The notes beneath the pieces were generated by a model that did not search any database, was not told where the DNA came from, and saw only the letters and a list, made by a program, of their open reading frames with translations. This document shows, piece by piece, positions 8,303-47,288 of a stretch of DNA of 64,000 nt. The position numbers and the translations under genes were made by a program. This stretch comes from Adhaeribacter swui (GTDB lineage: Bacteria; Bacteroidota; Bacteroidia; Cytophagales; Hymenobacteraceae), in the NCBI RefSeq assembly GCF_014217805.1, contig NZ_CP055156.1, positions 930,001 to 994,000 on the forward strand, written 5' to 3'. Positions within the stretch are counted from its first letter, which is position 1. Every line of letters starts with the position of its first letter.

Positions 8303-8472
8303 TAAAGGTTGAGGATAATATAATAAAAAATCAAACCATTACTTTCGAGCCCATCTATAACCAGGTAGTAGGCAGCCCGGCTATTTCGCTGCAGGCCAAA
8401 GCCAGCTCCGGCTTACCCATTACCTACGAAGTACTGTCGGGCCCAGCCACGGTTAAAGATAACCAACTAACC

Positions 8473-14858: not shown

Positions 14859-14874
14859 TTTCTTAATTTTTAAT

Positions 14875-14898
14875 GCACCGAACCAATGTTTCGGGTGC
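14875..14898 (+). terminator. Hairpin after array gene 3
   Basis: GCACCGAA (14875-14882) pairs with TTCGGGTGC (14890-14898) with one bulged G, 16 bp after the stop. It has no strong T-tract, so the terminator call is tentative. Confidence 0.5.
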
Positions 14899-15014
14899 GC
14901 GACATGCTGTAATAAAACTACGTTAAATAACTTAAAAACAATCTGATACCCAATACTATTTCACTCAAAATAGTTGCTATTATCTTATCTAATTCATTCA
15001 AATTCTCTTTACCT

Positions 15015-19691: not shown

Positions 19692-19707
19692 ATTTTTAAA
19701 AATCACA

Positions 19708-19741
19708 AAGCCAGATAGCTAATAAATAAGCTATCCGGCTT
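19708..19741 (+). terminator. Intrinsic terminator-like hairpin after array gene 4
   Basis: A 13-bp stem with one mismatch (19708-19720 with 19729-19741), an 8-nt loop, and a T-rich stretch after it. It lies 16 bp after the stop. Confidence 0.7.
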
Positions 19742-19841
19742 ATTTGTTTAGCACATTTTACTAAGCTGTAAATTTCTAAATCTATACCAGCTACTTATAA
19801 CTAATATCAGCATAATTAAACTTTAACTTAAAATAATAAAA

Positions 19842-19889
19842 ATACCAAAGTTTAGGTATTGCAACTACTGTACATAGCCCCTACCTTTA
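19842..19889 (+). promoter_or_regulatory. Shared palindromic promoter upstream of array gene 5
   Basis: The exact palindrome ATACCAAAGTTTAGGTAT (19842-19859) overlaps TTG (19859-19861). TACCTTTA at 19882-19889 follows after exactly 20 bp, as upstream of the 6833 gene. The flanking sequence is otherwise different, so the element is conserved beyond simple duplication. Confidence 0.75.
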
Positions 19890-19936
19890 ACGGGTTACAT
19901 AAATCCGTATAACACTCTTTATTTCCATCTATTTTT

Positions 19937-22900
19937 ATGAAAAAACAATTACCATTTTTTCACTGGCCTTTGATCAGAGAACACTTCTTTAAAATTGGGC
20001 TCTCCTTAAGTTTCTTATTTTTTATTTCTTTTTCTTTACCACACTCTTCTTTGGCTCAAAATAAAATCTGGGACAAGACCATTGGGGGTGATGGTTACGA
20101 AAGTAAGCCTTCTATTTACCCTACTCCGGATGGTGGCTATATTCTGGGATCTAGCTCTTCTTCCGATAAATCCAAAGATAAAAGCGAAAGCTCGGGCGTG
20201 GATGATTTTTGGATAGTTAAATTAAAAAGTGATGGCAGTATTGCCTGGGAAAACACCTTGAATGTACATGATTGGGAGCGATTAGTGAGTGTTTTGCCTA
20301 CCCCGGATGGAGGCTATATTGCCGGTGGTTATACCGCAGCCCGAGCAAACGGCGATAAAACGGCGCCTAAAAAAGGAAAAAACGACTACTGGATTGTTAA
20401 ACTAAAAGCCGATGGCACTTTTGCTTGGGACAAATCTTTTGGCGGCCCGGGCAACGATCTGCTCAGAACCATGCAGGTAACTACCGATGGCGGCTATATT
20501 CTCGGGGGTTACTCCGACTCTGGTATTTCTAAAGACAAATCCGACCCGCGCAAAGGCAGTTGGATTATAAAGTTAAAAGCCGATGGCGCTAAAGAATGGG
20601 ATAAAACGCTGGTAGGTGGGGGAGCAACTGCTTTCGGCTTAACTCACGACCAAATTCTACAAACCCAGGATGGCGGCTATCTGCTGGGAACCACATCTAA
20701 TTACGGCAAAGTAGGCGATAAAACAGGCTCTTCCCGCGGAAGTTCTGACTACTGGATAGTAAAGCTAAACGCCGATGGTACCAAGGCTTGGGATAAAACC
20801 TTTGGCGGAACCCAAAGCGACTATCTGGCTACTGTTATTCAAACCCAGGATGGCGGCTATTTTCTGGCGGGCAATTCTAAGTCCGGTATGGGTGCCGATA
20901 AATCAGATGCGAGCCGCGACGTTGGCAACGGTTCTGAATTTTTTCGTCCGATTGATTATTGGGTGATTAAGGTCGATGTGCAAGGTAACAAAATATGGGA
21001 TAAAACCATTGGCGGCGATCTCTACGATGCGGTAAGCTCCGCGCAACAAACTTCGGATGGCGGTTATTTATTGGGAGGGTCTTCTACTTCTACTATCAGT
21101 GGCGAGAAAACTCAAAGAAATGAAGGCAGTACCGATTATTGGGTTGTAAAGTTAAAAGTCGACGGCAGCAAAGACTGGGACGAAGTAGTGGGAGGAAATT
21201 CAGAGGATAGGTTATGGACCGCATTACAGACCAAAGACCAAAGCTATATTTTAGCGGGAGAATCTTTTTCCGGAATTTCTGCCGATAAAAGTGAAAAGAA
21301 TTTAGGCTTTTCTGATTTATGGGTAGTAAAACTAGACAACAAAATCACCAATAAAAAAGAGCAAACCATTACATTCAATCAGCTATCAGATAAAGATTTA
21401 CAATCGCAGAAAATCTTTACGCTGGGCGGTATTAGTACTTCGGGCTTACCGGTGAGCTACCGGGTTCAAGATGGTCCGGCTACCGTGAAAGGCAATCAAG
21501 TTACCCTATCGGGTTTAGGCACCGTAACCATTGTGGCAAGCCAGGCTGGTAATAACTCCTACGAAGCGGCCCGCGAAATAAAGCAGACTTTTACGGTAAT
21601 TAATTCACCGGTGGTTCAGCTATGGAATAAGTTATACGGCGGAGTTGCCACCAAGGAAATCCCTGCAAACGAAGAATGCCCCACTATTTTTGGTAAGTCA
21701 GCCATTACCGCTATGATAGCTACTCCCGATGGCGGTTATTTACTGGGTGGCACTTCTGACTCTAAAAAAGGCAATGACAAAAGCCAGGATCATATGGGTA
21801 CCGCCTCTCCGGAAATTTGCTACGCCGAAGAGCAACCTATTGCGGATTACTGGGTTGTAAAAATTGATACCAACGGTAAAAAACTTTGGGATAAAACCAT
21901 TGGTACCAATAAACGCGACCAGTTAGTAGCTATGGTACCAACCCAAGATGGCGGCTACCTGTTGGGAGGTAATTCCGGTGATTTTAGTTTTTACGAACCG
22001 TACTCGGATTATTATTTGGTAAAAATTGATGCCAACGGTAACATGCTCTGGGATAAAACCATAAGCCTGAGACAAGCAGATTTTATGACTGGCCTGATCG
22101 CGACACCCGACGGAGGTTTTTTAATTAGCGATTATGATCAATACAGAAACTATGATTACACGCTTTTAAAAATAGATGCGCAGGGTAAGCAACTCTGGAA
22201 GAAAAATTATGACTACACTAGTGGCTGGTATGGCGATAAATTAACTACGCTGGCTACTGCGGATGGCGGTTACTTAGTAGGAGGCACATTTTTTTCAAAT
22301 GGCGATAACGGGAATGGCCGGGATGCTTACAATTACAAAGTTTCAAAATTAGATGCGACTGGCAAGGAAATCTGGAAAAAGGTTTATGGTGGCAATGGTT
22401 TTGATGCTCTTTACTCTTTGTTAGCAACACCTAATGGCGGCTATTTACTGGGGGGCTATTCCGAGTCTGGACTTAGCGGCGATAAAAGCGAAGGTAGCCA
22501 AGGAGGATCTGACTATTGGGTAATTCAGGTAGATGCCAATGGCAATAAACAATGGGACACTTCCTTCGGTGGCGATAAAAATGAGTCAGTAACCACTATG
22601 GTAAGTACCCCGGATGGAGGATACCTGCTAGGTGGCCAATCCAAATCATTAGCTACTGGCGACAAGAGTGAGGCAATCCAAAGTTATTGGCTGGTAAAAA
22701 TTGATAGTAAGGGTAAAAAAATCTGGGATAAAACGTTTGGCACCCCTATGCCATATGGCAGATTTCAATCTCTTTTGGTTGACTCACAAGGCAATTATCT
22801 CCTGGGTGGCGAATCGGGTTTTTCTATTGCCGGCGACCAAGAACAGGCACCAAAAGGTTTAATCGACTACTGGGTAATTAAGATAAAAGAGAAAAGTCTT

Positions 22901-23215
22901 TTAAAAAGCACTTCTTCACACTTGCCCTACCTGGTTAAAGAGAATAAACCCAAACTTGCTCCTTTGCTCGCCTACCCCAACCCATTTCAGGACATACTAA
23001 CCATCCGCTTTACCCTGCCGGAAACCCAAACCGCTACCCTACGGATACTCGATGGCCAAGGCAAAGCAGTAGCTACGTTGTTTCAGCAAGAAGCCCAAGC
23101 CCAGCAACTGTATGAGGTAGAGTGGCAAGCCAGTAAGCAAGAAGCCGGTATGTATTTCTTGCAACTGCAAACGCCTACTGGCCAAAGCACACAAAAACTG
23201 TTCTTGAGTAAGTAA
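19937..23215 (+). CDS. T9SS-secreted double propeller protein with Ig-like module (array gene 5)
   Basis: 1092 residues. Signal peptide A40|Q41. Propeller 1 (about 43-472) has seven repeats; blade 2 is diverged (LNVHDWERL). An Ig-like module follows at about 473-558 (TITFNQLSDKDLQ, then STSGLPVSY). Propeller 2 (about 560-990) has seven repeats and starts LWNKLYGGVATKE, with a Cys-containing insertion (EECPTIFGK, EICYAEE). It is most similar to the middle propeller of the 28368 gene. The T9SS tail (about 1010-1092) follows directly, so this member lacks the C-terminal-type propeller that ends all other members. It may have lost that propeller, or may preserve a different arrangement. T9SS cargo; ligand unknown. 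Confidence 0.9.
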   Translation: MKKQLPFFHWPLIREHFFKIGLSLSFLFFISFSLPHSSLAQNKIWDKTIGGDGYESKPSIYPTPDGGYILGSSSSSDKSKDKSESSGVDDFWIVKLKSDGSIAWENTLNVHDWERLVSVLPTPDGGYIAGGYTAARANGDKTAPKKGKNDYWIVKLKADGTFAWDKSFGGPGNDLLRTMQVTTDGGYILGGYSDSGISKDKSDPRKGSWIIKLKADGAKEWDKTLVGGGATAFGLTHDQILQTQDGGYLLGTTSNYGKVGDKTGSSRGSSDYWIVKLNADGTKAWDKTFGGTQSDYLATVIQTQDGGYFLAGNSKSGMGADKSDASRDVGNGSEFFRPIDYWVIKVDVQGNKIWDKTIGGDLYDAVSSAQQTSDGGYLLGGSSTSTISGEKTQRNEGSTDYWVVKLKVDGSKDWDEVVGGNSEDRLWTALQTKDQSYILAGESFSGISADKSEKNLGFSDLWVVKLDNKITNKKEQTITFNQLSDKDLQSQKIFTLGGISTSGLPVSYRVQDGPATVKGNQVTLSGLGTVTIVASQAGNNSYEAAREIKQTFTVINSPVVQLWNKLYGGVATKEIPANEECPTIFGKSAITAMIATPDGGYLLGGTSDSKKGNDKSQDHMGTASPEICYAEEQPIADYWVVKIDTNGKKLWDKTIGTNKRDQLVAMVPTQDGGYLLGGNSGDFSFYEPYSDYYLVKIDANGNMLWDKTISLRQADFMTGLIATPDGGFLISDYDQYRNYDYTLLKIDAQGKQLWKKNYDYTSGWYGDKLTTLATADGGYLVGGTFFSNGDNGNGRDAYNYKVSKLDATGKEIWKKVYGGNGFDALYSLLATPNGGYLLGGYSESGLSGDKSEGSQGGSDYWVIQVDANGNKQWDTSFGGDKNESVTTMVSTPDGGYLLGGQSKSLATGDKSEAIQSYWLVKIDSKGKKIWDKTFGTPMPYGRFQSLLVDSQGNYLLGGESGFSIAGDQEQAPKGLIDYWVIKIKEKSLLKSTSSHLPYLVKENKPKLAPLLAYPNPFQDILTIRFTLPETQTATLRILDGQGKAVATLFQQEAQAQQLYEVEWQASKQEAGMYFLQLQTPTGQSTQKLFLSK

Positions 23216-23246
23216 TTTTTAAATTTTTCTGTTTCTACAAAAACCG

Positions 23247-23275
23247 AAGCCAATCCAAGCATCTTGGGTCGGCTT
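23247..23275 (+). terminator. Hairpin after array gene 5, diverged copy of the 6640 terminator
   Basis: AAGCC-A-ATCCAAG (23247-23259) pairs with CTTGGGTCGGCTT (23263-23275) with one mismatch and one G-U pair, around the same CAT loop as at 6640. The lost pairing in the outer stem suggests decay after duplication. Confidence 0.7.
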
Positions 23276-23331
23276 TCTGGTTTATAGATCATCTGAATAT
23301 TTAACAATAAAATAGCAGAATATATAGATAA

Positions 23332-23379
23332 ACACCAAAGTTTAGGTATAGCATCCTACCATCAAACCCTTTACCTTTA
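23332..23379 (+). promoter_or_regulatory. Shared palindromic promoter upstream of array gene 6
   Basis: ACACCAAAGTTTAGGTAT (23332-23349) differs from the other copies by one base in the left half-site. The -33 is TAG (23349-23351) instead of TTG. After 20 bp comes TACCTTTA (23372-23379). The two changes may weaken this copy. Confidence 0.65.
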
Positions 23380-23428
23380 ACTGCTTTTCACTTAAGTGAG
23401 GGCCAGCTAAATAAATTATTTTAATGCT

Positions 23429-26400
23429 ATGAAAAAAACATCAACCCATTTACCCTGGCGTTTAGGACTTGTAGTAACCCGGAGCGGAGGCTTACACCTT
23501 TGCGCTCTGCTGATAATTCTTTTAAATTTTACGCCATTAGCCCAAGCCCAAAAAATAATCTGGGATAAAACTATTGGCGGATCCGACAACGATATTTTAG
23601 CCGTAGTTCAACAAACTGCCGACGGCGGCTACATTCTGGGAGGAACTTCCAATTCAGGTAAGAGCGGCGACAAAACGCAAGACAGCCTGGCTGGATTTTA
23701 TGGGCGAGATTTCCAAGGTGATTATTGGATTGTTAAACTGAAACCCGATGGCACTAAAGATTGGGATAAAACCTATGGTGGTGGTGGTCAAGATAAGTTA
23801 GCTGCGGTTATTCAAACCAGGGACGGCGGCTATATTTTAGCAGGTACCTCTAATTCTTACAAATCCGGCGATAAAAGTCAAGACAATTATAAGTCAGAGT
23901 ATGGATTCGGCAGTGATTATTGGATCGTGCGGATTAAGGGGGATGGCAGTAAACTCTGGGATAAAACTATCGGGGGTACAGAAGACGAAGAATTAGTATC
24001 CATCCAACAAACCCAGGATGGGGGTTTTATTTTGGGGGGCACTTCCTCCTCCGGCATCTCCGGCGATAAAACACAAGCTTCTAAAGGCAATTCGGACTAT
24101 TGGATTGTAAAACTAAATGCCGATGGTAGTAAAGCCTGGGATAAAACCCTAGGCGGAAAGGATGTTGATTATCTAGGCGCGGTGCAACAAACCAGTGACG
24201 GGGGTTATATCCTGGGAGGCTACTCTGAGTCAGGTAAAACCGGCGATAAGTCCGAAGCTCGTCAAGGATATACAGATTATTGGATTATAAAGCTAAATGC
24301 CGATGGTAATAAAGTCTGGGATAAAACTTTAGGCGCTAATAAAGATGACCAGTTACATGCGCTGCAGCAAACCAGTGATGGCGGCTACATTGTGGGAGGA
24401 AGCACTTACTCCGGTAAAAGCGGGGACAAATCAGAAGTTAGCCGAGGAGGTGAAGATTTCTGGATTATTAAGCTAAGCGTAAATGGCAATAAGGTTTGGG
24501 ATAAAACTATTGGAGGTAATAATTCAGAAAAGATTAGCTCCGTTCAACAAACCCCGGATGGAGGTTATCTTGTGGGCGGCACTTCTTACTCCGGCAAAGG
24601 TGGCGATAAAACTGAAGACCGCCTCGGTTACTGGATAGTTAAGATAGATAATGCCGGTACTAAAACCTGGGACAGGGTTATAAGCAGCCAAGGTGGTGAT
24701 AATTTGAGTTCTGTAATACTGACGGCGGATGGCAATTACCTGTTAGGCGGCACTTCTTACTCTCGAATTAGTGGCGATAAATCTGAAGACAACCGGGATA
24801 AATTATTTTATAACCGGGCCACCAGTGATTTCTGGGTAGTAAAAGTTGATAACCAAATCCGGAAAAATCAGAACTTAATTTTCCCCGAAATACCTACTAA
24901 AACCACAACCGATGCCCCTTTTACCCTTTCGGCCAAAACTAGCGCCAACCTACCTGTTACCTTTACAATAATCTCGGGGCCAGCAGTAGTAAAAGGTAAT
25001 AAGCTCACCCTAACCGGCGCTGGCAATGTCATTATAAAAGCAACGCAGGCAGGTAACGCTACCTACAATCCAGTAGTAACTACACGCACTTTTACGGTGC
25101 TACTGGCCAGCCAACAACAGGATTTTACCTACGGCGGCAACCGGGCAGATACCTTAACTACCATGCTGGTAACCCCAGAAGGCGGTTATTTACTGGCCGG
25201 CACCTCGGCTTCCGGCATCTCCGGCGATAAAACCCAGGCTTCCCAGGATACCACCGACTTTTGGCTGGTAAAAACCGATGCCACGAGTAAGAAACTCTGG
25301 GACAAAAATTTTGGCGGCAACGGAGTAGATAAACCAACGGTTCTGGTAGCTACTCCGGATGGCGGTTATTTACTGGGCGGCAGTTCTACCTCAGGTATTT
25401 CCGGCCAAAAGAGTCAGGCTAATAAAGGCAAGTCTGACTACTGGATTATCAAACTCGATGCCCAAGGCGAGAAACAATGGGATAAAACTTACGGCGGCAA
25501 CGCGCAAGACCAGTTAACGGCTATTTTGATTACTCCAGAGGGTTATCTGCTGGGCGGTACCTCTAATTCGGGTATCTCCGGTGATAAAACCCAAGATAGC
25601 ATAGGTGAAACAGATTTTTGGGTAATAAAAACTGATCTTCAAGGGAAAGTACTTTGGGATAAAACTTACGGTGGTAATAAAGCCGATGTTCTGGTATCCA
25701 TGCTGGCTACCCCTAACGGCTACTTACTAGGCGGCACCTCCGCCTCGGGTACTTCCGGCGATAAAAGCCAAATTAACCGGACCTTGGCTGATTACTGGAT
25801 TATTCTAATAAATAAACAAGGCATAAAGCAATGGGATAAAACCTACGGCGGTTTAGTTGTAGTGGATGATTATGAAGGTTATACTTATTCTAATGTTTCT
25901 TCCGAACTGCAGAGTATCGTACCTACTCCCGATGGTGGCTTTTTGTTAGGTGGCAATTCCAATGCGGCAAAAGGTGGCGAGAAAAGCGTAGAAAGACCGC
26001 CAATTTACTCCAATTACAGCCGTATTTTAACCCCTGACTTTTGGGTTATAAAAATAGATGCGCAAGGTAAAAAACTATGGGATAAAATCTATGGAGGAGT
26101 TATGGGCACACTTGAAGTAGGATTTGATCCCACTTACGACGTCAATATTGGCGTAAGCAGTTTAAGTAAGATTGTACCCTTACCCGAAGGCGGCTATTTA
26201 CTAGCTGGTACTTCTAACGCCAAGGCCGGGGCAGAAAAAAGTGAATCCTTCCAACGGAATAGCGAAATTATCTACAGCACAACGGAAGTAAACGACTACT
26301 GGATTTTAAAAATTGACGAACAAGGCAACACTTTAGGCGATAAAACCATTGGCGGCTATAACAACGATAAACTAACTACCGCTGTACTGGCTCCCAGCGG

Positions 26401-28087
26401 CGATTATGTACTCGGCGGTACATCTTTCTCGGATATAGGAGCCGACAAAAGCGCCACTAACCAAGGCATAGCCGACTTCTGGCTGGTACAAGTAAAAGAT
26501 GGCAGCCGCCCGGCGCCTGCAGCCTGGAACCTGCGCTATGGCGGCAACGGCAGGGATCATCTCACTTCTACTATTAAGACCCGAGATGGGGGTTACTTAA
26601 GCGCGGGCTACACCAACTCCGGGGTCAGCGGCGACAAAACCCAGAACAGCCAGGGTAAAAACGACTACTGGATTGTCAAATCGGATGCTGCCGGCAACAA
26701 ACTCTGGGACAAACGCTACGGCGGCTCCGGTGATGATTACCTCAACCGGGTCATCCAAACCCGGGACGGGGGCTACTTACTGGCTGGCTCTTCTGTATCA
26801 GGCAAGAGCAGCGACAAAACGGAAGCTAGTAAAGGCAAGCGCGACTACTGGCTGGTGAAAGTAGATGCGCAAGGCACGACAGAATGGGATAAAACCTTGG
26901 GCGGCTCAGGGTACGACGAACTTAAGAAAGTAGTCGAGCTCGCTTCGGGCGAGTACGTGCTGGGTGGCTACAGCAACTCCCCCGTGAGTGGGGATAAAAC
27001 CCAGCCCAACCAAGGCGGAACCGATTACTGGCTGGTAAAACTTGCCCATAACGGTACGAAGCTCTGGGATAAAACTTACGGCGGCACTCAAGACGAAATA
27101 CTTGGTAGCTTTACGGAAACAACGGATGGCGGCTTTTTACTGGCGGGTAGCTCCTCCTCGGCCATGAGTGGGGATAAAAGCCAGGCTAGTAAAGGAGCCA
27201 GTGACTACTGGATCGTGAAAACTGATCCGACCGGCAGCTTAGTCTGGGAGAAAACCTATGGCGGCAGCGGCCAAGATGAAGCGTATTCGGTAGCCACCAG
27301 CGGCACGGAGTTCTTTATCGCGGGCACTTCCAGTTCCGGTAAAAGCGGCGACAAAAGCCAGGAAAGTAAAGGCGGTAAAGACTACTGGTTAATCAAACTC
27401 GATCAGAAAGGCAATAAACTTTGGGACAGAACTTACGGGGGCGACCAAGACGATGAACTCCGGGCCAGTTCTGCTAGCATAAATGGCGGGCTGGTCTTAG
27501 CTGGTTTTTCTTATTCTAATAACAGCGGCAACAAAAGCCAAAATAGCCAGGGCGAGAGTGATTACTGGATCGTGCAAGTAGATGCGGAAGGCAACCCAAT
27601 ACAAGACCAACGTTATGGCGGTAGCGGGAAAGACGAACTCCGGACCGTGACCCATACTCCCGATGGCGGTTTGCTCTTAGCTGGCCGCTCCAACTCCGAT
27701 GCCAGTGGTGACCGCTCCCAGCCGAGTCAAGGCAGTACCGATTACTGGCTCGTGAAAATAGCCGCACCTGCTTCCAGTATAGTAGCAACCAGAACGGTTA
27801 GCTTAACCGAAGAACCCGGCGCGGAACTTACAACAGTAACGGCTTACCCCAACCCCTTCCAGGAAAAAGTAACCGTAAGCTTTACCCTGCCCCAAACCCA
27901 AATTGCTACCCTACGGATACTCGATAGCCAAGGCAAAGCAGTAGCTACGTTGTTTCAGCAAGAAGCCCAAGCCCAGCAGCCGTATGAAGTAGAATGGCAA
28001 GCCAGTAAGCAAGAAGCTGGTATGTATTTCTTGCAGCTGCAAACGCCTACTGACCAAAGCACGCGCAAACTACTCTTGAGTAAGTAA
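23429..28087 (+). CDS. T9SS-secreted triple seven-bladed propeller protein with Ig-like module (array gene 6)
   Basis: 1552 residues. Signal peptide A40|Q41, nearly identical to that of the 6833 gene (both contain THLPWRLGL and LHLCALLII). Propeller 1 (about 43-475); Ig-like module (about 477-565; LIFPEIPTKTTTDAPFTL, SANLPVTF); propeller 2 (about 566-1028, from QDFTYGGNRAD) with enlarged blades 5 and 6; propeller 3 (about 1030-1450, from AAWNLRYGG) of C-terminal type. T9SS tail 1471-1552 (VTAYPNPFQEKVTVSF ... KLLLSK). The linker before the tail (APASSIVATRTVS ... EEPGAELTTV) is almost the same as in the next gene, suggesting recent exchange. Each propeller has seven repeats. Confidence 0.9.
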   Translation: MKKTSTHLPWRLGLVVTRSGGLHLCALLIILLNFTPLAQAQKIIWDKTIGGSDNDILAVVQQTADGGYILGGTSNSGKSGDKTQDSLAGFYGRDFQGDYWIVKLKPDGTKDWDKTYGGGGQDKLAAVIQTRDGGYILAGTSNSYKSGDKSQDNYKSEYGFGSDYWIVRIKGDGSKLWDKTIGGTEDEELVSIQQTQDGGFILGGTSSSGISGDKTQASKGNSDYWIVKLNADGSKAWDKTLGGKDVDYLGAVQQTSDGGYILGGYSESGKTGDKSEARQGYTDYWIIKLNADGNKVWDKTLGANKDDQLHALQQTSDGGYIVGGSTYSGKSGDKSEVSRGGEDFWIIKLSVNGNKVWDKTIGGNNSEKISSVQQTPDGGYLVGGTSYSGKGGDKTEDRLGYWIVKIDNAGTKTWDRVISSQGGDNLSSVILTADGNYLLGGTSYSRISGDKSEDNRDKLFYNRATSDFWVVKVDNQIRKNQNLIFPEIPTKTTTDAPFTLSAKTSANLPVTFTIISGPAVVKGNKLTLTGAGNVIIKATQAGNATYNPVVTTRTFTVLLASQQQDFTYGGNRADTLTTMLVTPEGGYLLAGTSASGISGDKTQASQDTTDFWLVKTDATSKKLWDKNFGGNGVDKPTVLVATPDGGYLLGGSSTSGISGQKSQANKGKSDYWIIKLDAQGEKQWDKTYGGNAQDQLTAILITPEGYLLGGTSNSGISGDKTQDSIGETDFWVIKTDLQGKVLWDKTYGGNKADVLVSMLATPNGYLLGGTSASGTSGDKSQINRTLADYWIILINKQGIKQWDKTYGGLVVVDDYEGYTYSNVSSELQSIVPTPDGGFLLGGNSNAAKGGEKSVERPPIYSNYSRILTPDFWVIKIDAQGKKLWDKIYGGVMGTLEVGFDPTYDVNIGVSSLSKIVPLPEGGYLLAGTSNAKAGAEKSESFQRNSEIIYSTTEVNDYWILKIDEQGNTLGDKTIGGYNNDKLTTAVLAPSGDYVLGGTSFSDIGADKSATNQGIADFWLVQVKDGSRPAPAAWNLRYGGNGRDHLTSTIKTRDGGYLSAGYTNSGVSGDKTQNSQGKNDYWIVKSDAAGNKLWDKRYGGSGDDYLNRVIQTRDGGYLLAGSSVSGKSSDKTEASKGKRDYWLVKVDAQGTTEWDKTLGGSGYDELKKVVELASGEYVLGGYSNSPVSGDKTQPNQGGTDYWLVKLAHNGTKLWDKTYGGTQDEILGSFTETTDGGFLLAGSSSSAMSGDKSQASKGASDYWIVKTDPTGSLVWEKTYGGSGQDEAYSVATSGTEFFIAGTSSSGKSGDKSQESKGGKDYWLIKLDQKGNKLWDRTYGGDQDDELRASSASINGGLVLAGFSYSNNSGNKSQNSQGESDYWIVQVDAEGNPIQDQRYGGSGKDELRTVTHTPDGGLLLAGRSNSDASGDRSQPSQGSTDYWLVKIAAPASSIVATRTVSLTEEPGAELTTVTAYPNPFQEKVTVSFTLPQTQIATLRILDSQGKAVATLFQQEAQAQQPYEVEWQASKQEAGMYFLQLQTPTDQSTRKLLLSK

Positions 28088-28114
28088 ATTTTTTAAATTT
28101 TTCTGTTTCCCTGA

Positions 28115-28152
28115 AAGCCGATCCAAGATATATGGATCGGCTTCGGTTTTTT
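28115..28152 (+). terminator. Intrinsic terminator after array gene 6
   Basis: A perfect 11-bp stem (28115-28125 with 28133-28143) with a 7-nt loop, followed by CGG and a run of T. It lies 27 bp after the stop, behind the conserved TTAAATTTTTCTGTTTC stretch. Confidence 0.85.
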
Positions 28153-28212
28153 ATAATTTAAGCAGAATTACAGCAAGTTAATTCAAGAATAATTTAAAAA
28201 TTTATTAACATT

Positions 28213-28260
28213 ATACCAAAGTTTAGGTATTGTATAAAGATAACTAATGCTGTACTTTTA
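28213..28260 (+). promoter_or_regulatory. Shared palindromic promoter upstream of array gene 7
   Basis: The exact ATACCAAAGTTTAGGTAT (28213-28230) overlaps TTG (28230-28232). TACTTTTA follows at 28253-28260 after 20 bp. The position, about 108 bp before the ATG at 28368, supports that downstream start. Confidence 0.75.
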
Positions 28261-28367
28261 AGAGATTAAATAGCATCCTTAATAGGCATCAACCAAGCCT
28301 CTTATTAATGCTTAGTAATACATCTTACATAAAACCTTTACCTTACTCTATTCTACTAATTATTCGC

Positions 28368-31300
28368 ATGAAAAAACTTTTTACCCAACTTTCTTGGCGC
28401 CATAAGGTGCGCCAGAAAAATATCAGGTGGTATTGTTCCAGTGCTATCCTTTTTGTTTGTTTTAGTTTCTCCAACTTAGCTAGCGCCCAAACTAAAATCT
28501 GGGATAAAACTTACGGCGGCTCTGATCAAGATCTACTTCGCTCTGCCCAGCAAACCCAGGATGGGGGCTATATTTTAGGAGGAAACTCGAACTCCGAAGC
28601 GGGTGGTGACAAAACCGAAGGCAGAAAAGGCCGTTACGATGTGGCAAATTATTGGATCGTAAAACTAAAAGCCGATGGCACCAAAGAATGGGATAAAACC
28701 ATTGGTGGTCAGGATCGGGATGGTTTATCCCAAGTACAACAGACTACGGATGGTGGTTATATTTTAGGTGGTTCATCGCAATCGCGCAAGAGTGCCGATA
28801 AGTCTGAGGGTAACAAAGGACCTCTTTATACCACTGATTACTGGGTTGTAAAACTAGATAAAAATGGGAAGAAAATATGGGATAAAACCATTGGCGGTAA
28901 TCAAGGAGATGGACTAACGTCTCTGCAACAAACTACGGATGGCGGCTATATTGTGGGTGGTTATTCTAGCTCCCCGGTATCTGGCAACAAAACCTCGGCC
29001 AGTAAAGGCGCCGCCGATTACTGGCTTGTAAAATTAAAAGCCGATGGCACCAAAGAATGGGATAAATCATTTGGTGGTAATGCCGACGATCTATTATATG
29101 CGGTGCAACAAACTCCAGATGGCGGTTATCTTTTAGGAGGTAATTCTATTTCCGGATTAAGCGGTGATAAAACCACAGCGGCTTCGGGAGGCTGGCTTGT
29201 GAAGGTAAATGCCAATGGGACCAAAGAATGGGATAAAACTATAACCAATTTTTCCATTTCTTCTCTTCTTTTAACCACCGATAACAACTATTTACTGGGG
29301 GGCACTTCTATTTCGAAAGCTACCTACAGCGATTACCGGGTAATTAAGTTAAAACCCAATGGCAGCACCATCTGGGGAAAAACCATATCTGGTAATAACC
29401 AGGATCATTTAGCTTCGGTGCAACCAACCCAGGATGGCGGTTATTTATTAGGGGGATCTTCTAACTCCGACGCGGGCTTCGATAAAAGAGAAAAACTTTT
29501 GAGTAGTTCTATCTACCCCGATGATTCTCCGGTTAGCGATTACTGGATTGTAAAACTAAAAGCTGATGGCACCAAAGAATGGGATAAAACTATTGGCGGG
29601 AAGTATGAGGAGCAGTTAGCTACCGCTTTTCAATCCCGCGAGGGCCAGTACATATTAGCTGGCTATTCTGAATCTGAACGGAACGGTGATAAATCGGAGT
29701 TTTCCCGTGGTATAGGAGATTACTGGGTGGTAAAACTGGATAACAACAACAAGGTTGGTAAAGAGCAATTTATTACCTTCAAAACCATCCCCAACCAAGA
29801 TCTAGTTAACTCCCCTATTACCCTGCAAGCTACTGCTACTTCCGGCTTACCGGTTAGCTACAGGGTGGTGTCCGGCCCGGCTACGGTAAAAAACAAGCAG
29901 CTTACTTTAACAGGCACAGGTAATGTTACGATAAAAGCGCAACAAACTGGTAACGCTACTTACGATGTTGCTCGGGAAGTTTTTCAAAGTTTTGAAATAA
30001 TTGATTCACCGGTAAAGCAAGTCTGGAATAAAACCTACGGTGGTGTTGTCACCATTACGCCTCAAATGCCCGATTCAGAGTGTAATGATTTTGGCACTTC
30101 CAACTTTTCTACCATGGTAGCTACACCGGACGGCGGTTATCTGCTGGGCGGCAGCTCCGATTCTAAAAAAGGAGGCGACAAAAGCGAAGACCTAAAAGGT
30201 CCAAACAGAGGCTGTGCCTATCCTTTTTCTAACGGGGGAACTCTGGACTATTGGCTCGTAAAAGTGGATGCAAATGGCCGACGGTTATGGGATAAAACTT
30301 ACGGGGGCGATGGCTGGGAGGAGCTGGCCAGCATAGTAGCTACTCCGGATGGGGGTTATTTATTAGGTGGCGTATCGGAATCTGGCATAAGCGGTGATAA
30401 AAGCGAAGCCTGCAAGAGTCCAAATAATTGTTTCGATTTCTGGTTGATTAAAATAGATGCCAACGGCAACAAATTGTGGGACAAGAGTATACCGCGCTTA
30501 GGACGACTGCGGCTGGCCGACCTAATTACTACACTTGATGGAGGATATTTAATGAGTACTTCTGAATACTCCGTTTTAAAATTAGATGGTAAAGGCAATA
30601 CTGTTTGGGAAAAAACCTTGCCTGGTGGCTGGTTTGGTGGATTTAAAACTCTGCTCGCCACTCCGGATGGCGGTTATTTACTGGGCGGGGATCTCAATTC
30701 TACGGATCCGGATATCACCAACTCGGGTGAAGGTCTTGATTATTGGCTCGTTAAGCTGGATAGCAAGGGCAACAAGCTGTGGGATAAAACCTACGGCGGC
30801 AATGCCGCTGACGGAATCTATGATATAGTTGCTACTCCAGATGGAGGTTATTTACTCGGAGGCACTTCTAGTTCTTCCATTAGCGGCAATAAAAGTTCCG
30901 TTAGCAAAGGTGGCAATGATTATTGGATAGTTAAAATTGATGCTTCCGGTAAAAAGCTCTGGGATAAATCATTGGGGGGTAGTTCGGGTGAAAGATTAGT
31001 AGATATGGCGGTTACTCCAGATGGTGGTTATTTATTGGGGGGTGATTCCCAATCCGATATATCTGGTGATAAAAGTGAAACAAGGCGAGGTAAAACCTAT
31101 GAAAACGATTACTGGATAGTAAAACTGGATGGCACAGGTCAGAAACTTTGGGATAAAACTTTTGGTGGGAATGGCACCCAAGAACAATTTAAAGCATTAA
31201 TCGCAAATCCGGATGGCAGCTATTTGCTGGGCGGCACCACAGATTCCCCCGAGGGCGGCGATCGGCAAGAACCTCTGAAAGGATTAGTAGATTACTGGGT

Positions 31301-32906
31301 AATCAAGATAAAAGATAAAGAACCACCGGTTACCACCACCTGGAACCTGCGCTACGGCGGCACGGGCACCGATAACCTTACCGCCCTCATTGCTACCCAG
31401 GATGGCGGTTACCTCTCGGCTGGTTACACCAACTCCGGCGCAAACGGCGACAAATCCCAACCTAGCCAAGGTAAAAACGACTACTGGATCGTAAAAAGCG
31501 ATGCTGCCGGTAAAAAACAATGGGATAAAAGCTACGGTGGCTCCGGTGATGATTACCTCAACCAGGTGATCCAGACTATGGATGGTGGCTACTTACTGGC
31601 CGGTTCTTCCCTCTCGGGTAAGTCGGGGGATAAAAGCCAGGCTAGTCGCGGCGGCCGCGATTACTGGATCGTAAAAGTAGATAAACAAGGCAACAAAGAG
31701 TGGGACAAACGCTATGGTGGCACCGGTAATGAGGAGCTCAAGAAAGTTATCCAACTAGCTTCGGGCCGCTACCTCTTAGTGGGTAACAGCAACTCCCCCG
31801 TAAGCGGCGACAAAAGCAAAGCCAGCCAAGGGGATCAGGATTACTGGATTGTAAAAATTAACTCCGATGGCCAGAAAGCCTGGGACCGCTGCTACGGCGG
31901 CAACGGCGAAGACTTAGCCGAAGACGCAGCGCTCCTACCGAACGGTGACTTGCTGGTGGGGGGCAGCTCTACTTCGGGCTCCGGAGGAGACCACACCCAA
32001 GGCAACCGCGGTGCCAGTGATTACTGGGCCTTGCGTTTAGATGGCAACGGCATTAAAGTCTGGGACCGGACCTTTGGCGGCGCCCGGGAAGACAAGTTAA
32101 TGGCAGTGGGTACTACAACTACCGGCAACCTGTATTTGGCGGGTACGAGTACTTCAAAAAACAGCGGCGATAAAAGCCAGACCAGTGCGGGGGGCAGCGA
32201 TTACTGGTTCCTGGAACTAAACAACGCGGGGAGCAAACTGTGGGATAAAACCTACGGTGGCTCCAAAGACGAAGAACTCCGTGCCGTACAGGTAACCAGT
32301 GATGGCGGCTACTTGCTGGCGGGTTCTTCTACTTCCGGAGTAAGTGGCGATAAGACCCAAGCCAGTCAGGGGGGCAAGGATTACTGGGTCGTCAAAATTG
32401 ATCCAGCGGGGAAAGTACTGTGGGACCAAAGACAAGGAGGCAGCGACACGGAAGAACTGCGCGCCGCGCTACTGACCAGCGATAACGGGTATTTGCTGGC
32501 GGGCCGCTCCAACTCCGGGGTAAGTGGTGACCGCTCGCAGCCTAGCCAAGGATTAACTGATTACTGGCTCGTGAAAATAGCCGCACCTGCTTCCAGTATA
32601 GTAGCAACCAGAACAGTTAGCTTCACCGGAGAACCCGGCGCGGAACTTACAACAGTAACGGCTTACCCGAACCCCTTCCAGCAACAGGTAACCATCCGCT
32701 TTACTTTACCCGAAACCCAAATTGCTACCCTATGCATACTCGATGGCCAAGGCAAAGTAGTAGCTACGCTATTCCAAGCAGAAGCTCAAGCCAACCAACC
32801 TTACCAGCTAGAATGGCAAGCGGATAAACAAGAAGCGGGTATGTATTTCTTGCACCTGCAAACCCCAACCGGGCAAAGCACCCACAAACTACTCTTGAGT
32901 AAGTAA
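28368..32906 (+). CDS. T9SS-secreted triple seven-bladed propeller protein with Ig-like module (array gene 7)
   Basis: 1512 residues from the ATG at 28368. An in-frame ATG at 28308 adds 20 residues but would break the 40-residue signal-peptide length conserved in the family, so I prefer 28368 (A40|Q41). Propeller 1 (about 43-462); Ig-like module (about 464-548; FITFKTIPNQDLVNSPITL, ATSGLPVSY); propeller 2 (about 549-983, from QVWNKTYGGVVTI), related to the second propeller of gene 5 and carrying Cys-bearing loops (ECNDFG, GCAYPF, ACKSPNNCFDFW); propeller 3 (about 989-1410, from TTWNLRYGG). T9SS tail 1431-1512. Blade 5 of propeller 1 and blades 3-4 of propeller 2 are short and diverged. A T9SS cargo protein of unknown binding specificity. 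Confidence 0.9.
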   Translation: MKKLFTQLSWRHKVRQKNIRWYCSSAILFVCFSFSNLASAQTKIWDKTYGGSDQDLLRSAQQTQDGGYILGGNSNSEAGGDKTEGRKGRYDVANYWIVKLKADGTKEWDKTIGGQDRDGLSQVQQTTDGGYILGGSSQSRKSADKSEGNKGPLYTTDYWVVKLDKNGKKIWDKTIGGNQGDGLTSLQQTTDGGYIVGGYSSSPVSGNKTSASKGAADYWLVKLKADGTKEWDKSFGGNADDLLYAVQQTPDGGYLLGGNSISGLSGDKTTAASGGWLVKVNANGTKEWDKTITNFSISSLLLTTDNNYLLGGTSISKATYSDYRVIKLKPNGSTIWGKTISGNNQDHLASVQPTQDGGYLLGGSSNSDAGFDKREKLLSSSIYPDDSPVSDYWIVKLKADGTKEWDKTIGGKYEEQLATAFQSREGQYILAGYSESERNGDKSEFSRGIGDYWVVKLDNNNKVGKEQFITFKTIPNQDLVNSPITLQATATSGLPVSYRVVSGPATVKNKQLTLTGTGNVTIKAQQTGNATYDVAREVFQSFEIIDSPVKQVWNKTYGGVVTITPQMPDSECNDFGTSNFSTMVATPDGGYLLGGSSDSKKGGDKSEDLKGPNRGCAYPFSNGGTLDYWLVKVDANGRRLWDKTYGGDGWEELASIVATPDGGYLLGGVSESGISGDKSEACKSPNNCFDFWLIKIDANGNKLWDKSIPRLGRLRLADLITTLDGGYLMSTSEYSVLKLDGKGNTVWEKTLPGGWFGGFKTLLATPDGGYLLGGDLNSTDPDITNSGEGLDYWLVKLDSKGNKLWDKTYGGNAADGIYDIVATPDGGYLLGGTSSSSISGNKSSVSKGGNDYWIVKIDASGKKLWDKSLGGSSGERLVDMAVTPDGGYLLGGDSQSDISGDKSETRRGKTYENDYWIVKLDGTGQKLWDKTFGGNGTQEQFKALIANPDGSYLLGGTTDSPEGGDRQEPLKGLVDYWVIKIKDKEPPVTTTWNLRYGGTGTDNLTALIATQDGGYLSAGYTNSGANGDKSQPSQGKNDYWIVKSDAAGKKQWDKSYGGSGDDYLNQVIQTMDGGYLLAGSSLSGKSGDKSQASRGGRDYWIVKVDKQGNKEWDKRYGGTGNEELKKVIQLASGRYLLVGNSNSPVSGDKSKASQGDQDYWIVKINSDGQKAWDRCYGGNGEDLAEDAALLPNGDLLVGGSSTSGSGGDHTQGNRGASDYWALRLDGNGIKVWDRTFGGAREDKLMAVGTTTTGNLYLAGTSTSKNSGDKSQTSAGGSDYWFLELNNAGSKLWDKTYGGSKDEELRAVQVTSDGGYLLAGSSTSGVSGDKTQASQGGKDYWVVKIDPAGKVLWDQRQGGSDTEELRAALLTSDNGYLLAGRSNSGVSGDRSQPSQGLTDYWLVKIAAPASSIVATRTVSFTGEPGAELTTVTAYPNPFQQQVTIRFTLPETQIATLCILDGQGKVVATLFQAEAQANQPYQLEWQADKQEAGMYFLHLQTPTGQSTHKLLLSK

Positions 32907-32932
32907 TTTTTTTAAATTTTTCTGTTTCTACA

Positions 32933-32970
32933 AAGCCGGCCAGAGCACCTCTAGCCGGCTTGTTCTTTTA
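32933..32970 (+). terminator. Intrinsic terminator after array gene 7
   Basis: AAGCCGGC pairs with GCCGGCTT, and an inner AGAG/CTCT stem continues after one mismatch, with a CAC loop (32933-32961). A T-rich stretch (GTTCTTTT) follows. Confidence 0.8.
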
Positions 32971-33415
32971 AAATTGATGAAAAGGCAACCCACTAAGTAT
33001 CAAATTTAAAAAAACTGTTACACAAAATTTATTACTAAAAAATCTATCTATAATTCAAAAATTTACGTAAATTAGTTTTTACTAAGTAGTAACTCTACGC
33101 TTGTTCTTTCCTGAATTTTCAGTTAGATCGCAGCAGCAAGTAACCCGGCAGCATGTTTCAAACTTTTGCTTGAAACAGAGGATTATTCCGCATATAATTT
33201 CACTCAAAACAGCAGTAAATTAAGTATAAACATTTTTGTACTAATACATTCGCTATCCATTTTATTGTACTAGTCTAGTTGCCACAAACCAAAAGTTAAA
33301 TTATTAAAAATCACTATTTTATAATTTAATATTAAATCATTCTTAAATACTCGTTGCTATCAAATTACAGTAAACAGCTATTTATGATTACCGTCCTATA
33401 CTAAACCCTACCAGT
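32962..33415. other. Long AT-rich intergenic region inside the array
   Basis: This gap (509 bp in all after the stop at 32906) is the longest in the array and has no supported ORF. It has a short perfect stem, TGTTTCAA (33154-33161) with TTGAAACA (33170-33177), of unknown role. Around 33130-33155 it vaguely resembles the leader of the 39319 gene (GCAGCAA ... GCATGTT). The ATACC palindrome is absent. Confidence 0.4.
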
Positions 33416-36400
33416 ATGAAAACACAATTACTTCCGGGCAATAAAATTTACAAAAATCTACCATTTGCTTATTACAACCGCTTTATTTATCTAACGTTTG
33501 TGTTAGTCTGCGGGGTAACTGTGGCCACCTGGGCCCAGCCATCTGTACTTTGGGATAAAACCATTGGCGGGAATAAATCGGAAAACCTGAGTTTCGTGCA
33601 ACAAACAAACGACGGCGGTTACATCCTGGGGGGCTCTTCTAACTCGGCCATTAGCGGCGATAAAACGCAGATAAATAAGGAAGTAGATTACTGGATTGTT
33701 AAGTTAGATGCTAACCGCAATAAATTGTGGGATAAAACCATTGGCGGACCCGGTAGCGATCATTTAACATCGATGCAGCAAACCAGCGATGGTGGGTATA
33801 TTCTAGGGGGTTACTCCTATTCCGGACAAGGCGGCGATAAATCGGAAGAAAATAAGGGCGGAATAGATGAACTGGGGCGGCCCACCACCGATTACTGGGT
33901 AGTAAAAATAAATGCCACCGGCGCCATTATTTGGGAAAACACCCTTGGCGGCAACCACAACGACCACTTGCTAGCCGTGCAACAAACCAGCGACGGCGGG
34001 TATATTCTGGGAGGCTGGTCGTTTTCTGGAATTAACGCAGATAAATCCGCGGCTTCTAAAAACGGTGATTATTGGATAGTAAAACTAAATGCCAATGGCA
34101 CCAAAGTTTGGGACCGCACCATTGGCAGCAATTTTTACGACGAGTTTGCCACTTTGCAACAAACCAGCGATGGCGGGTATATTATTGGCGGCCACACAGA
34201 AGGAACCGGGGGCGACAAAACTTCTCCCACCAAAGGAGCCAGTGATTACTGGATTGTAAAGCTAAATGCCGATGGCACTACATCCTGGGATAAAACCATT
34301 GGCGGTAGCTCTTACGACCGGTTAGAAGTAGTGCAGCAAACCCAGGACGGGGGGTATATTGTAGGCGGCAATTCGGCCTCTGGTATCAGTGGGGATAAAT
34401 CGGAAGCGCTGCGCGATGTAGAAGAAATACCGGATCTGTTTCCATCGGACTACTGGATAGTGAAACTTAATGCCACCGGTACCAAAGAATGGGATAAAAC
34501 TTTGGGCGGAACAGCCTTGGATTACCTGAGTTCTATCCTGCAAACAAGCGAAGGCAACTATATTTTGGGCGGCTATTCCTTTTCGGAACAAGGTGGTGAG
34601 AAAACCGAACCCAGTAAAGGAATGGGCGATTTTTGGTTAGTAAATGTAGATGTGAACGGCGCCAAAATCTGGGATAAAACTATTGGCGGTAATTACACTG
34701 ATATTTTAACCTCGTTGCAGCCTACCCCGGATGGCAATTACCTGCTCGGCGGCACCTCACCTTCTGACCTTAGTGGCGATAAAACCGCAGCCAGCCAAGG
34801 GGCTACCGATTATTGGCTCTTAAAAATTACCGACCATACGAGCAAAATGCTTTGGAACAAGCGCTTTGGGGGAGTGGGCGCCGAGTATTTAACCGCGCTT
34901 ATTCAAACCCGGGATGGCGGTTACTTAGCCGGAGGATATTCTAACTCCGATGTGGGTGGCGATAAAACGCAACTCAGTTGGGGTAAAAACGACTACTGGG
35001 TAGTAAAAACCAATGCCGCGGGTAAGAAATTGTGGAACCGGCGCTTTGGCGGCTCTAATGATGATTTTTTAACCACGCTTATTCAAACGCAGGACGGTGG
35101 CTACTTGCTGGGAGGCAGTTCGGTTTCCGGAATAAGTGGTGATAAAACCCAGGCTGGTCGCGGCAACCGGGATTACTGGATAGTTAAATTAGATGCTCAA
35201 GGAAATAAACAATGGGATAAACGCTACGGCGGCACGGGTAAAGATGAACTTAAAAAAGTGATTCAACTGCCTTCGGGACGTTATATTTTAGCCGGAACCA
35301 GTAACTCCCCCACCGGAGGCGATAAAAGCGCCGGCAACCAAGGAGCGCAGGATTACTGGATTTTAAAAATTTCAGCTACGGGCACCCGTATGTGGGATAG
35401 AAGTTTTGGCGGTACCTTAAACGATGCCCTGAGTGATTTAGCTTTCACCGCGGATGGCGGCTTTCTGCTGGGCGGTTCCTCGGCCTCGGGCGTTAGCGGC
35501 GACAAAACGCAACCTAGTTGGGGCGGCTATGATTATTGGCTGGTACGGATAGATGGCCTGGGCAACAAACTTTGGGATAAACGGTTCGGCGGCATCGGAG
35601 ACGATAATTTAACTTCGCTAGGTAGCACGAACACCAGTACTGGCAACTTTTTTATTGCAGGCTATAGTGGTTCTGGTGTAAGCGGCGATAAAACCCAGAG
35701 CAGCCAGGGAGGTACCGACTTCTGGATGCTTAAAATTAATCGTAACGGCGGCAAACTTTGGGATAAGCGCTTTGGGGGCAGCCAGCACGAACGCCTGCAT
35801 TCTATTATCATTACTGCCGATGGCGGGTACTTACTAGGCGGTATTTCTAATTCCGACATCAGCGGCGACAAAACGCAAGCCAGTTTTGGTAACAGCGACT
35901 ACTGGGTAGTAAAAACCACGAGCTTAGGCGTAAAAGAATGGGATAAACGCTTTGGCGGCGCTGAATACGACAACCTGCGTACCGTGCTGCAGACCACCGA
36001 TGGCGGGTACATTTTAGGCGGGTATTCTTACTCGGGTAGCAGCGGCAACAAAACGCAACCCAGCCGCGGCAGTACCGACTTTTGGTTGGTGGCATTAGGC
36101 CCTGAGCCGTCTGGCACTTCTTCCCCAGCAGTAGCGCGCGAAATTACTCTCCCGGAAGATCTCGTAATTTTACCGGAACCCGGCAACCTAACCGTGGCAC
36201 CTAATCCTTTCCGGGACAGAATAAACGTACACTTTACGCTCCCGCAAACGCAACCCGTCCAGGTAAAAGTTTTCGATATGCAGGGCCGGGAAGTAACTAC
36301 GTTGTTTCAAGGAGAGGCACAGGCCAACAAAGCCTACGAGGTAGAGTGGCAAGCTGTTAACAAAGCTCCCGGTATGTACTTGCTGCAACTGCAAACCCCT

Positions 36401-36439
36401 ACAAATCGCCAACAACAGAAAATGATCTTGGCTAAGTAA
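33416..36439 (+). CDS. T9SS-secreted double seven-bladed propeller protein (array gene 8)
   Basis: 1007 residues. Signal peptide A40|Q41 (ATWAQPS). Propeller 1 (about 43-476) has seven YILGG-type repeats from VLWDKTIGG. Propeller 2 (about 479-900) starts MLWNKRFGG and is the C-terminal type, in the variant whose blade 5 reads NLTSLGSTNTSTGNFFIAGYS, shared with the genes at 39319 and 47289. T9SS tail about 922-1007 (LTVAPNPFRDRINVHF ... KMILAK). This tail resembles those of the 36717, 39319 and 42464 genes more than those of the upstream members. No Ig module, no Cys loops, and no clear terminator after the gene. T9SS cargo; ligand unknown. Confidence 0.9.
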   Translation: MKTQLLPGNKIYKNLPFAYYNRFIYLTFVLVCGVTVATWAQPSVLWDKTIGGNKSENLSFVQQTNDGGYILGGSSNSAISGDKTQINKEVDYWIVKLDANRNKLWDKTIGGPGSDHLTSMQQTSDGGYILGGYSYSGQGGDKSEENKGGIDELGRPTTDYWVVKINATGAIIWENTLGGNHNDHLLAVQQTSDGGYILGGWSFSGINADKSAASKNGDYWIVKLNANGTKVWDRTIGSNFYDEFATLQQTSDGGYIIGGHTEGTGGDKTSPTKGASDYWIVKLNADGTTSWDKTIGGSSYDRLEVVQQTQDGGYIVGGNSASGISGDKSEALRDVEEIPDLFPSDYWIVKLNATGTKEWDKTLGGTALDYLSSILQTSEGNYILGGYSFSEQGGEKTEPSKGMGDFWLVNVDVNGAKIWDKTIGGNYTDILTSLQPTPDGNYLLGGTSPSDLSGDKTAASQGATDYWLLKITDHTSKMLWNKRFGGVGAEYLTALIQTRDGGYLAGGYSNSDVGGDKTQLSWGKNDYWVVKTNAAGKKLWNRRFGGSNDDFLTTLIQTQDGGYLLGGSSVSGISGDKTQAGRGNRDYWIVKLDAQGNKQWDKRYGGTGKDELKKVIQLPSGRYILAGTSNSPTGGDKSAGNQGAQDYWILKISATGTRMWDRSFGGTLNDALSDLAFTADGGFLLGGSSASGVSGDKTQPSWGGYDYWLVRIDGLGNKLWDKRFGGIGDDNLTSLGSTNTSTGNFFIAGYSGSGVSGDKTQSSQGGTDFWMLKINRNGGKLWDKRFGGSQHERLHSIIITADGGYLLGGISNSDISGDKTQASFGNSDYWVVKTTSLGVKEWDKRFGGAEYDNLRTVLQTTDGGYILGGYSYSGSSGNKTQPSRGSTDFWLVALGPEPSGTSSPAVAREITLPEDLVILPEPGNLTVAPNPFRDRINVHFTLPQTQPVQVKVFDMQGREVTTLFQGEAQANKAYEVEWQAVNKAPGMYLLQLQTPTNRQQQKMILAK

Positions 36440-36716
36440 ATACTTTAATTTAAGACAAGCCTGATTATTACAGGAAACAAAAAAATAAGTAATACAGGAT
36501 TCAAATACGCCTATTTGGGAATTTTAAAATTCATTAAAAAGTGTTGTTGATATAAATAATGAAAAGTTAAATAAAGAAGAAGTAACTACATTTAAAGGCG
36601 TTCAACTAGGCGTAACCCTTTCGACTCTCTCCTGCTGCAAACTTAAAAATTAAAGTTTGTCAAACATTTCTTGCCACCATTTTCTGTTCTGATCTGCTTT
36701 ATCAACTCCCAAAACC

Positions 36717-38897: not shown

Positions 38898-39318
38898 AAA
38901 GTATATCTGAGTATTGTAGCCATTCCATAGCCCAATAAAGCTATTACTCATTACTTGATTAGCAGGTAAATTGTAAAATTTTAAAAATTTTATCATCTGT
39001 ATCTGCCGCATCTACTTTACTTTCTTCGCTGTTTATTTTAAAAATTTACTTAGATATGCTGCAGCCATTTGAAAATAAAATCTGATTTATTTTAATAAAT
39101 AGTAATTGCAGCAACAACTAGTCTGTAGCATGTTCCAACTGAGCATAAGCAGCATTTTTCACTTAAATCAAGTTATTAATACGAAACTGGTTTCAGTTTA
39201 TTAATGGCAGGCACACCAATGCCTCACTACTTTCTGCTGTAAAACTTTACAAAAAAGTTTTTTGCCTTTACAACAGTTAAAATTTACTCATTTAGCATTT
39301 TACTTAAACCCAAATAGT
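38898..39318. other. Intergenic region before array gene 10
   Basis: 421 bp, AT-rich, with no convincing ORF or terminator hairpin. Part of it could encode a 19-residue N-terminal extension of the next gene, but the conserved signal-peptide length argues that it is leader. No ATACC palindrome. Confidence 0.4.
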
Positions 39319-42324: not shown

Positions 42325-42463
42325 CTAAAAAGTTGTATAAACAGAACACTTCTTTCTTGCTTTTATACCACAGGGCTCTTTGCAGTATGGCAAACGTAGC
42401 TGGCTCTTTCTGCAGTCAAATTTTTAATTTTTAAATATCACCTGTTTGAAAACTTATACAATT

Positions 42464-46963: not shown

Positions 46964-46980
46964 ACCAGCGTTAACTTTGC

Positions 46981-47022
46981 AATAAAGCCGGATAGTAGCA
47001 ATGCTATCCGGCTTTATTTTTT
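46981..47022 (+). terminator. Intrinsic terminator after array gene 11
   Basis: A perfect 15-bp stem (46981-46995 with 47004-47018), an 8-nt loop and a T-tract. It lies 17 bp after the stop. The rest of the gap to 47289 is AT-rich and featureless. Confidence 0.9.
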
Positions 47023-47288
47023 AACATTATTTAAGATTAAAGAATCCTTCCGGCCAAAAAACCAAAAATTTAAAAATTACCACAAAGCACAAATTGCCCC
47101 TACTTCTTGGTAAAATAATCTAAGATTATTAAGTATAATTTTTATAAAAACATTACTTTAGACTACCTTCCTCAGCTGTGAACATTTGTCTTATAGTGCT
47201 CTACATTCTTGTTTGTCAGTTTTCCAAACAAGTGCCCTGATAATGAATAATCGTTATTTACTTTTTGTACAAACTAGAATATTAATCT

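Follow-up and report, generated by a model that had tools for sequence, protein, structure and literature searches.

Gene conversion between paralogues has been described for the PE, PPE and ESX families of Mycobacterium tuberculosis (PMC13061034). In the available part of that paper, as here, patches that match a paralogue within a bacterial gene family are read as recombination between copies. The M. tuberculosis study mapped its events onto a tree of 151 isolates, whereas one genome per species was compared here; unlike the M. tuberculosis cases, the patches described below have since diverged by a few percent and lie in long tandem arrays of T9SS propeller genes. In Porphyromonas gingivalis, domain rearrangement and allelic exchange of surface proteins were observed across 21 strains (PMC5266723). 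As far as the accessible text of that report goes, the two cases share the phylum Bacteroidota, surface proteins with T9SS sorting domains and recombination of segments. Allelic exchange across strains is at issue there, whereas the exchange considered here is between copies in a tandem array within one genome. A third related case is concerted evolution of paralogues, with homogeneous stretches and with paralogues closer to each other than to orthologues (PMC2720389, in the portion available). Our arrays resemble it in that sorting domains are often nearest to others of their own array (most clearly in gene 1). Unlike in that case, only parts of the genes are homogenised, the front propellers are divergent, and not every array is affected.

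No report of gene conversion in tandem T9SS propeller arrays was found among the titles and abstract beginnings of the best matches in the open-licence literature. The process itself is known, as conversion between bacterial paralogues is established, and tandem T9SS propeller arrays are a new example of it.

Layout of the array and of genes 6 and 7

The window (the whole stretch of 64,000 nucleotides that was analysed, C3:930001-994000) was taken from a genome of 6.2 Mb in 3 contigs. It contains a tandem array of propeller genes, of which genes 6 and 7 are neighbours:

3592..51836, + strand: tandem array of 12 propeller genes (g1-g12), including the gene 6/gene 7 pair
23429..28087, + strand: gene 6 (g6), 1552 aa, with a signal peptide (by eye), propellers, a predicted-disordered linker and a T9SS sorting domain
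28368..32906, + strand: gene 7 (g7), the neighbouring paralogue with the same layout, 1512 aa from the ATG at 28368

The first ATG of the gene 7 ORF is at 28308, upstream of the one used. The N-termini of both proteins are hydrophobic and, by eye, end in AQA-like sites. Outside the sorting domain, both consist mainly of repeats of about 60 residues. The sorting domains were recognized by PF18962 (46.5 bits in gene 6 and 39.8 bits in gene 7; cut-off 27) and by TIGR04183 (40.6 and 38.7 bits; cut-off 23), and the genome also encodes the T9SS translocon (SprA family, 2392 bits; cut-off 200) and a member of the T9SS sortase family (1413 bits; cut-off 420). Membership in the LipL53 family of SBBP repeat propeller lipoproteins (NF047494) was considered for both genes and rejected, since their scores of 116.5 and 132.1 bits are below the cut-off of 400 and indicate a related repeat only. 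Named protein matches include Runella, Larkinella and Cyclobacterium (all Cytophagales), and the best of them is about 50% identical in its best segment, although records of very near genomes are possibly absent from these matches.

A structure model of the last 513 residues of g6 was built from the 12 window proteins. It contains 27 strands in residues 1-405 with a mean pLDDT of 82, and the last propeller of g6 is thus predicted to be a seven-bladed beta-propeller fold, for which about 28 strands in seven four-stranded blades are expected. The propeller is followed by the linker (pLDDT below 50 at model residues 409-428) and then by the strand-rich sorting domain. When the model was searched with Foldseek, the best solved match was the propeller enzyme CylK (E-value 1.3e-21; TM 0.66 by query length; 24% identity).

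Gene 2 (6833-11574) consists of two ORFs instead of one (6833-8302 and 8473-11574), and its frame change apparently lies at a run of seven G (8221-8227). Split family ORFs were also found in the arrays of relatives and among the dispersed copies of this genome. At eight of nine further breaks, a run of at least five G was present within the 200-350 bases inspected; in the control, random stretches of family genes, 200-300 bases long, had such runs in 35-47% of cases. Phase variation is one possible cause of the breaks at G runs; gene decay and homopolymer sequencing errors are others.

The gene 6/gene 7 patch

The best-scoring ungapped segment between the two genes runs from the last propeller strand through the predicted-disordered linker into the beginning of the T9SS sorting domain:

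27740..27862, + strand: gene 6/gene 7 patch in gene 6, 119/123 identical
32559..32681, + strand: the gene 7 copy of the patch

An earlier note on this DNA had called the linker DNA of genes 6 and 7 almost identical, the propellers upstream clearly different and the tails divergent again later, and our measurements agree with it. At 27765-27850, 82 of 86 bases equal gene 7 in a register of 4819 bases, and the linker positions reported earlier are good to 1-2 bases. In windows of 50 codons, nucleotide identity is 0.44-0.69 over most of the pair. It rises to 0.92 and 0.89 in the two windows that cover the patch (27704-27928) and is 0.80-0.85 from there to the stop, so that identity in this sliding-window check is uneven along the pair and clearly not uniform. 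The 5' edge of the patch is clear. At the 3' edge, identity steps from 97% to 81% (183/225 identical bases at 27863-28087) and not to background.

The silent sites follow the same pattern. Fourfold-site identity is 0.79-0.88 in the patch and mostly 0.1-0.6 elsewhere (noisy values, from 4-29 sites per window), and outside the tail the silent sites of the two genes are near saturation. In a scan restricted to silent sites (see below), the patch has an E-value of 3.8e-7 for the pair, or about 0.002 after multiplication by the 5151 pairs scanned. The other ten genes of the window array have different linkers. The earlier view that such patchy identity is a sign of recombination is supported by both observations, namely silent sites homogenised in a bounded patch and linkers that differ in the other paralogues.

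A weaker rise in gene 6/gene 7 identity was observed at 26582-26800 (0.73-0.82). We rejected it as a second patch, as its fourfold identity of 0.45-0.59 is not clearly raised and the scan gives the tail patch only. Near this region genes 2 and 11 also match gene 6 at 75-76%, and the rise is mainly amino-acid conservation.

We favour gene conversion because the homogenised silent sites lie in bounded patches, which mostly join neighbouring genes and in which no constraint is visible. Very probably, the gene 6/gene 7 patch arose by ectopic gene conversion, in which paralogues that lie next to each other in the tandem array recombine. Such homologous recombination, with gene number lastingly unchanged, would have overwritten a tract of at least about 120 bp in gene 6 or gene 7, covering the linker and the first part of the sorting domain, while the older, near-saturated divergence of the two genes would persist before the patch. 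The donor would be the neighbour on the same chromosome, RecA-type recombination would presumably be responsible, and the exact sequence of the linker may matter little.

Sorting domains are conserved at the amino-acid level, and identity of this kind might stem from purifying selection if the linker and sorting domain served as a functional sorting signal. However, silent sites are homogenised too, more within the array than elsewhere, and the linker, with its predicted disorder and its variation among the window paralogues, is a poor candidate for such a signal; we consider selection extremely improbable as the cause. Structural constraint on the linker is also an unlikely cause of the identity, because its predicted pLDDT is below 50.

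The two genes also share sequence directly behind their stop codons. A T-rich motif like TTTTTTAAATTTTTCTGTTTC is found right after stop codons, often before a terminator-like hairpin, at the following places in the window:

6620-6640, 23215-23235, 28089-28109, 32908-32928 and 51837-51857: T-rich post-stop motif

The 21-mer is exact after the stops of genes 1, 6 and 7, and about half of the 17 ORFs of array G004a have a related stretch behind their stop codons. We considered the post-stop identity as part of the conversion and rejected this, since the 21-mer is a genome-wide motif with 32 copies at up to 2 mismatches, compared with 4 for the reversed control.

Beyond this short motif, the downstream intergenic DNA of genes 6 and 7 is unrelated. 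This bears on unequal crossing-over or tandem duplication, by which genes 6 and 7 would be chimeras or duplicates with a tail left from a common copy. The two genes are adjacent and the gene number of the arrays varies between species, as such events would predict. However, the 5' edge of the patch lies within the genes, and a single crossover is disfavoured because identity would then continue into the downstream region. Plain duplication is disfavoured because the whole gene would then be equally old; with the pre-patch sequence near silent saturation, a whole-gene duplication would be too old for 97% identity. An origin of this type is therefore very unlikely.

Different partners in different parts of genes 6 and 1

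The remainder of gene 6 is close to other members of the array:

27905..28062, + strand: the part of the gene 6 sorting domain behind the patch, equal to gene 5 at 150/158 bases
23033..23190, + strand: the gene 5 counterpart in its sorting domain
22976..23571, + strand: gene 5/gene 6 junction (the sorting domain of gene 5, the DNA between the genes and the first 143 bases of gene 6), which matches the gene 1/gene 2 junction at 83.5%
6379..6975, + strand: gene 1/gene 2 junction, counterpart of the gene 5/gene 6 junction

The two junctions were compared over 599 columns. They include a cassette of intergenic DNA and the signal-peptide end of genes 2 and 6 (6621-6984 and 23216-23580), which is 88% identical over 366 columns in two copies 16.6 kb apart. 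By its nearest partners, gene 6 thus appears as a mosaic of parts close to gene 7, gene 5 and gene 2. Gene conversion probably also accounts for the similarity of the remaining gene 6 sorting domain to gene 5, and probably for that of the gene 6 promoter and signal-peptide end to gene 2.

Among the informative sites of the gene 6 sorting domain, 31/44 favour gene 5 and 13/44 favour gene 7. A switch point between these partners within the sorting domain was not significant (1731 of 20000 permutations), and the change from gene 7 to gene 5 is therefore located only roughly, at 27848-27905. The relatives gave no direction of transfer, as both linkers share the next-nearest partners G003b_5 and G004a_13 at similar identity. 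When tails were searched in eight genomes of the genus (up to 150 candidates scored per genome), no unconverted orthologue of gene 6 or 7 was seen and the best tail match in another species was 66%. For the front parts, the best match outside this genome among the arrays fetched was 0.61 for gene 6 and 0.59 for gene 7.

The counts of tail-query matches in the genus were at least 221-265 in four genomes, with 150 candidates scored in each, and 7-46 in four others, one of which is 78% complete. These counts may indicate a large lineage-specific expansion or loss.

Relatives with arrays at the corresponding place were used to compare gene 1. The upstream neighbour of the window array also precedes the G004 and G003 arrays, and its two downstream neighbours also follow the G004 array; the place thus corresponds on both sides in G004 and on the upstream side in G003. 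Phylogenetic trees were drawn for 18 hand-picked genes of the 102 scanned, and the clades tested were picked after the nearest-partner table and the trees were known. The last propeller of gene 1 groups with the first genes of the G004, G003 and G005c arrays (100/100), and with G004a_1 in particular (100/99), whereas its sorting domain groups with g4, g7 and g12 (82/88). A clade of the four first genes is rejected by the sorting-domain data (p-AU 0.008), and g1+g4+g7+g12 by the propeller data (p-AU 8e-34). The sorting domain is compatible with a pairing of gene 1 with G004a_1 alone (p-AU 0.30). On these trees, gene 1 appears to be the clearest case of differing relatives for propeller and sorting domain. 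In the case of gene 6, its grouping with gene 5 in the sorting-domain tree is weak (76/63), and genes 6 and 7 together were not rejected by the sorting-domain tree (p-AU 0.28) and only at p-AU 0.055 by the propeller tree.

Silent-site patches across related arrays

The sample comprised the window array, 17 further places in this genome (the family occupies at least 17 further places among the matches listed) and seven arrays of three related species (G003, G004 and G005). The scan used 102 of 115 family ORFs from four species, one genome each, in 5151 pairwise codon alignments. The 13 ORFs left out lacked a sorting motif within their last 110 residues or were shorter than 600 aa; the first half of the broken gene 2 is outside the 115, and the dispersed copies of G003-G005 are outside the scan. 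Only codons for the same amino acid were used, and runs of identical codons were tested against the average of the pair itself.

At E-values up to 1e-5, 11 patches were found in the 5151 pairs, gene 6/gene 7 among them, and none in each of 20 site-shuffled replicates. At up to 1e-3, there were 16 patches, compared with a mean of 1.05 and a maximum of 4 in the shuffled sets (20 replicates, all pairs). At this level, patches were present in 9/69 adjacent pairs, 3/117 pairs at a distance of two or three genes and 2/273 pairs farther apart in the same array, or in 5/390 non-adjacent pairs of the same array altogether. The difference between adjacent and other same-array pairs has a Fisher p of 2.6e-5, which is indicative since the pairs are not independent, and one group of G004 genes supplies several of the patches. 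The sign recurs in the arrays of three related species, mainly in adjacent genes. The 14 in-array patches are all confined to the last 527 codons, a span with 47% of the silent sites of adjacent pairs; global alignments are possibly out of register in the front-part repeats, where patches would be hidden. Exchange would thus run mainly between adjacent genes across the genus and, as far as silent sites tell, in their 3' third.

No patch was found in the 951 pairs from the same genome outside a common array. Between genomes there were 2 in 3741 pairs, both of G003a with G005c (2/130, and 0/3611 for the remainder), two arrays in which several genes are mutual near matches. One gene of G005c, G005c_9 (G005 C2:4113551-4118125, L095), matches G003a_6 at 397/429 and G003a_4 at 311/318 in separate segments and appears to be a mosaic across species. 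Such a gene is consistent with the view that a patch may come into one gene by allelic or ectopic recombination with DNA from a related cell or the copy of another strain, and one genome cannot separate the two sources. For the gene 6/gene 7 patch, however, we consider uptake from another cell distinctly unlikely, given the concentration of patches in adjacent pairs (9/69) against 0/951 elsewhere in the same genome. With gene conversion between neighbours, this clustering is explained directly by chromosomal proximity.

We also compared each array with itself (best 14 matches per array). Blocks of about 1-1.7 kb with 75-90% identity were observed as well, many of them beginning about 1500-1630 bases before the stop and ending about 330 bases before it, which is about the span of the last propeller, and some reaching the stop, as in G003a. 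Short 5' ends are common to genes of G005a, in which genes 6, 7 and 10 have cassettes like those of genes 2 and 6 of the window.

The nearest partners of gene parts were also compared at the level of whole arrays. The nearest partner is in the own array for 49/85 sorting domains and for 23/82 front parts (everything before the last propeller). Among the discordant genes, 27 switch towards the own array and 3 away from it (exact p = 8e-6). The corresponding values are 30/85 for the last propeller and 34/85 for the linkers. Three of the eight arrays have no sorting-domain excess over front parts (G003b, 1/8 and 2/8; G005c, 2/10 and 2/10; G005d, 2/5 and 2/5). The silent-site excess of same-array pairs over other pairs of the same genome is 0.047 for the sorting domain, 0.065 for the linker, 0.038 for the last propeller and 0.013 for the front part, values reached by 0, 1, 0 and 0 of 500 label shuffles, respectively. 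In the two halves of the sorting domain, silent identity is 0.52 and 0.50 within arrays, 0.48 and 0.45 elsewhere in the same genome, and 0.48 and 0.46 between genomes; amino-acid identity of the halves within arrays is 0.59 and 0.60. Host-wide co-adaptation of sorting domains to the T9SS was rejected as the main cause, because it would appear genome-wide, and genes elsewhere in the genome are without the silent-site excess.

The arrays could be a modular shuffling system, a surface-diversification device of environmental Bacteroidota by which divergent front propellers are moved between well-expressed and well-sorted frames. We regard this as a rather unlikely reading. The similar ends (sorting domain, terminator, promoter and signal peptide) and the common last propeller would in that case supply the homology for repeated exchange.

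Copies in large tandem T9SS propeller arrays seemingly do not evolve independently, as neighbours appear to swap pieces, mostly in the 3' third. Trees of sorting domains or of whole genes can therefore mislead about orthology. The arrays at the corresponding place in at least two relatives are a natural record in which short-range recombination in Bacteroidota could be studied.
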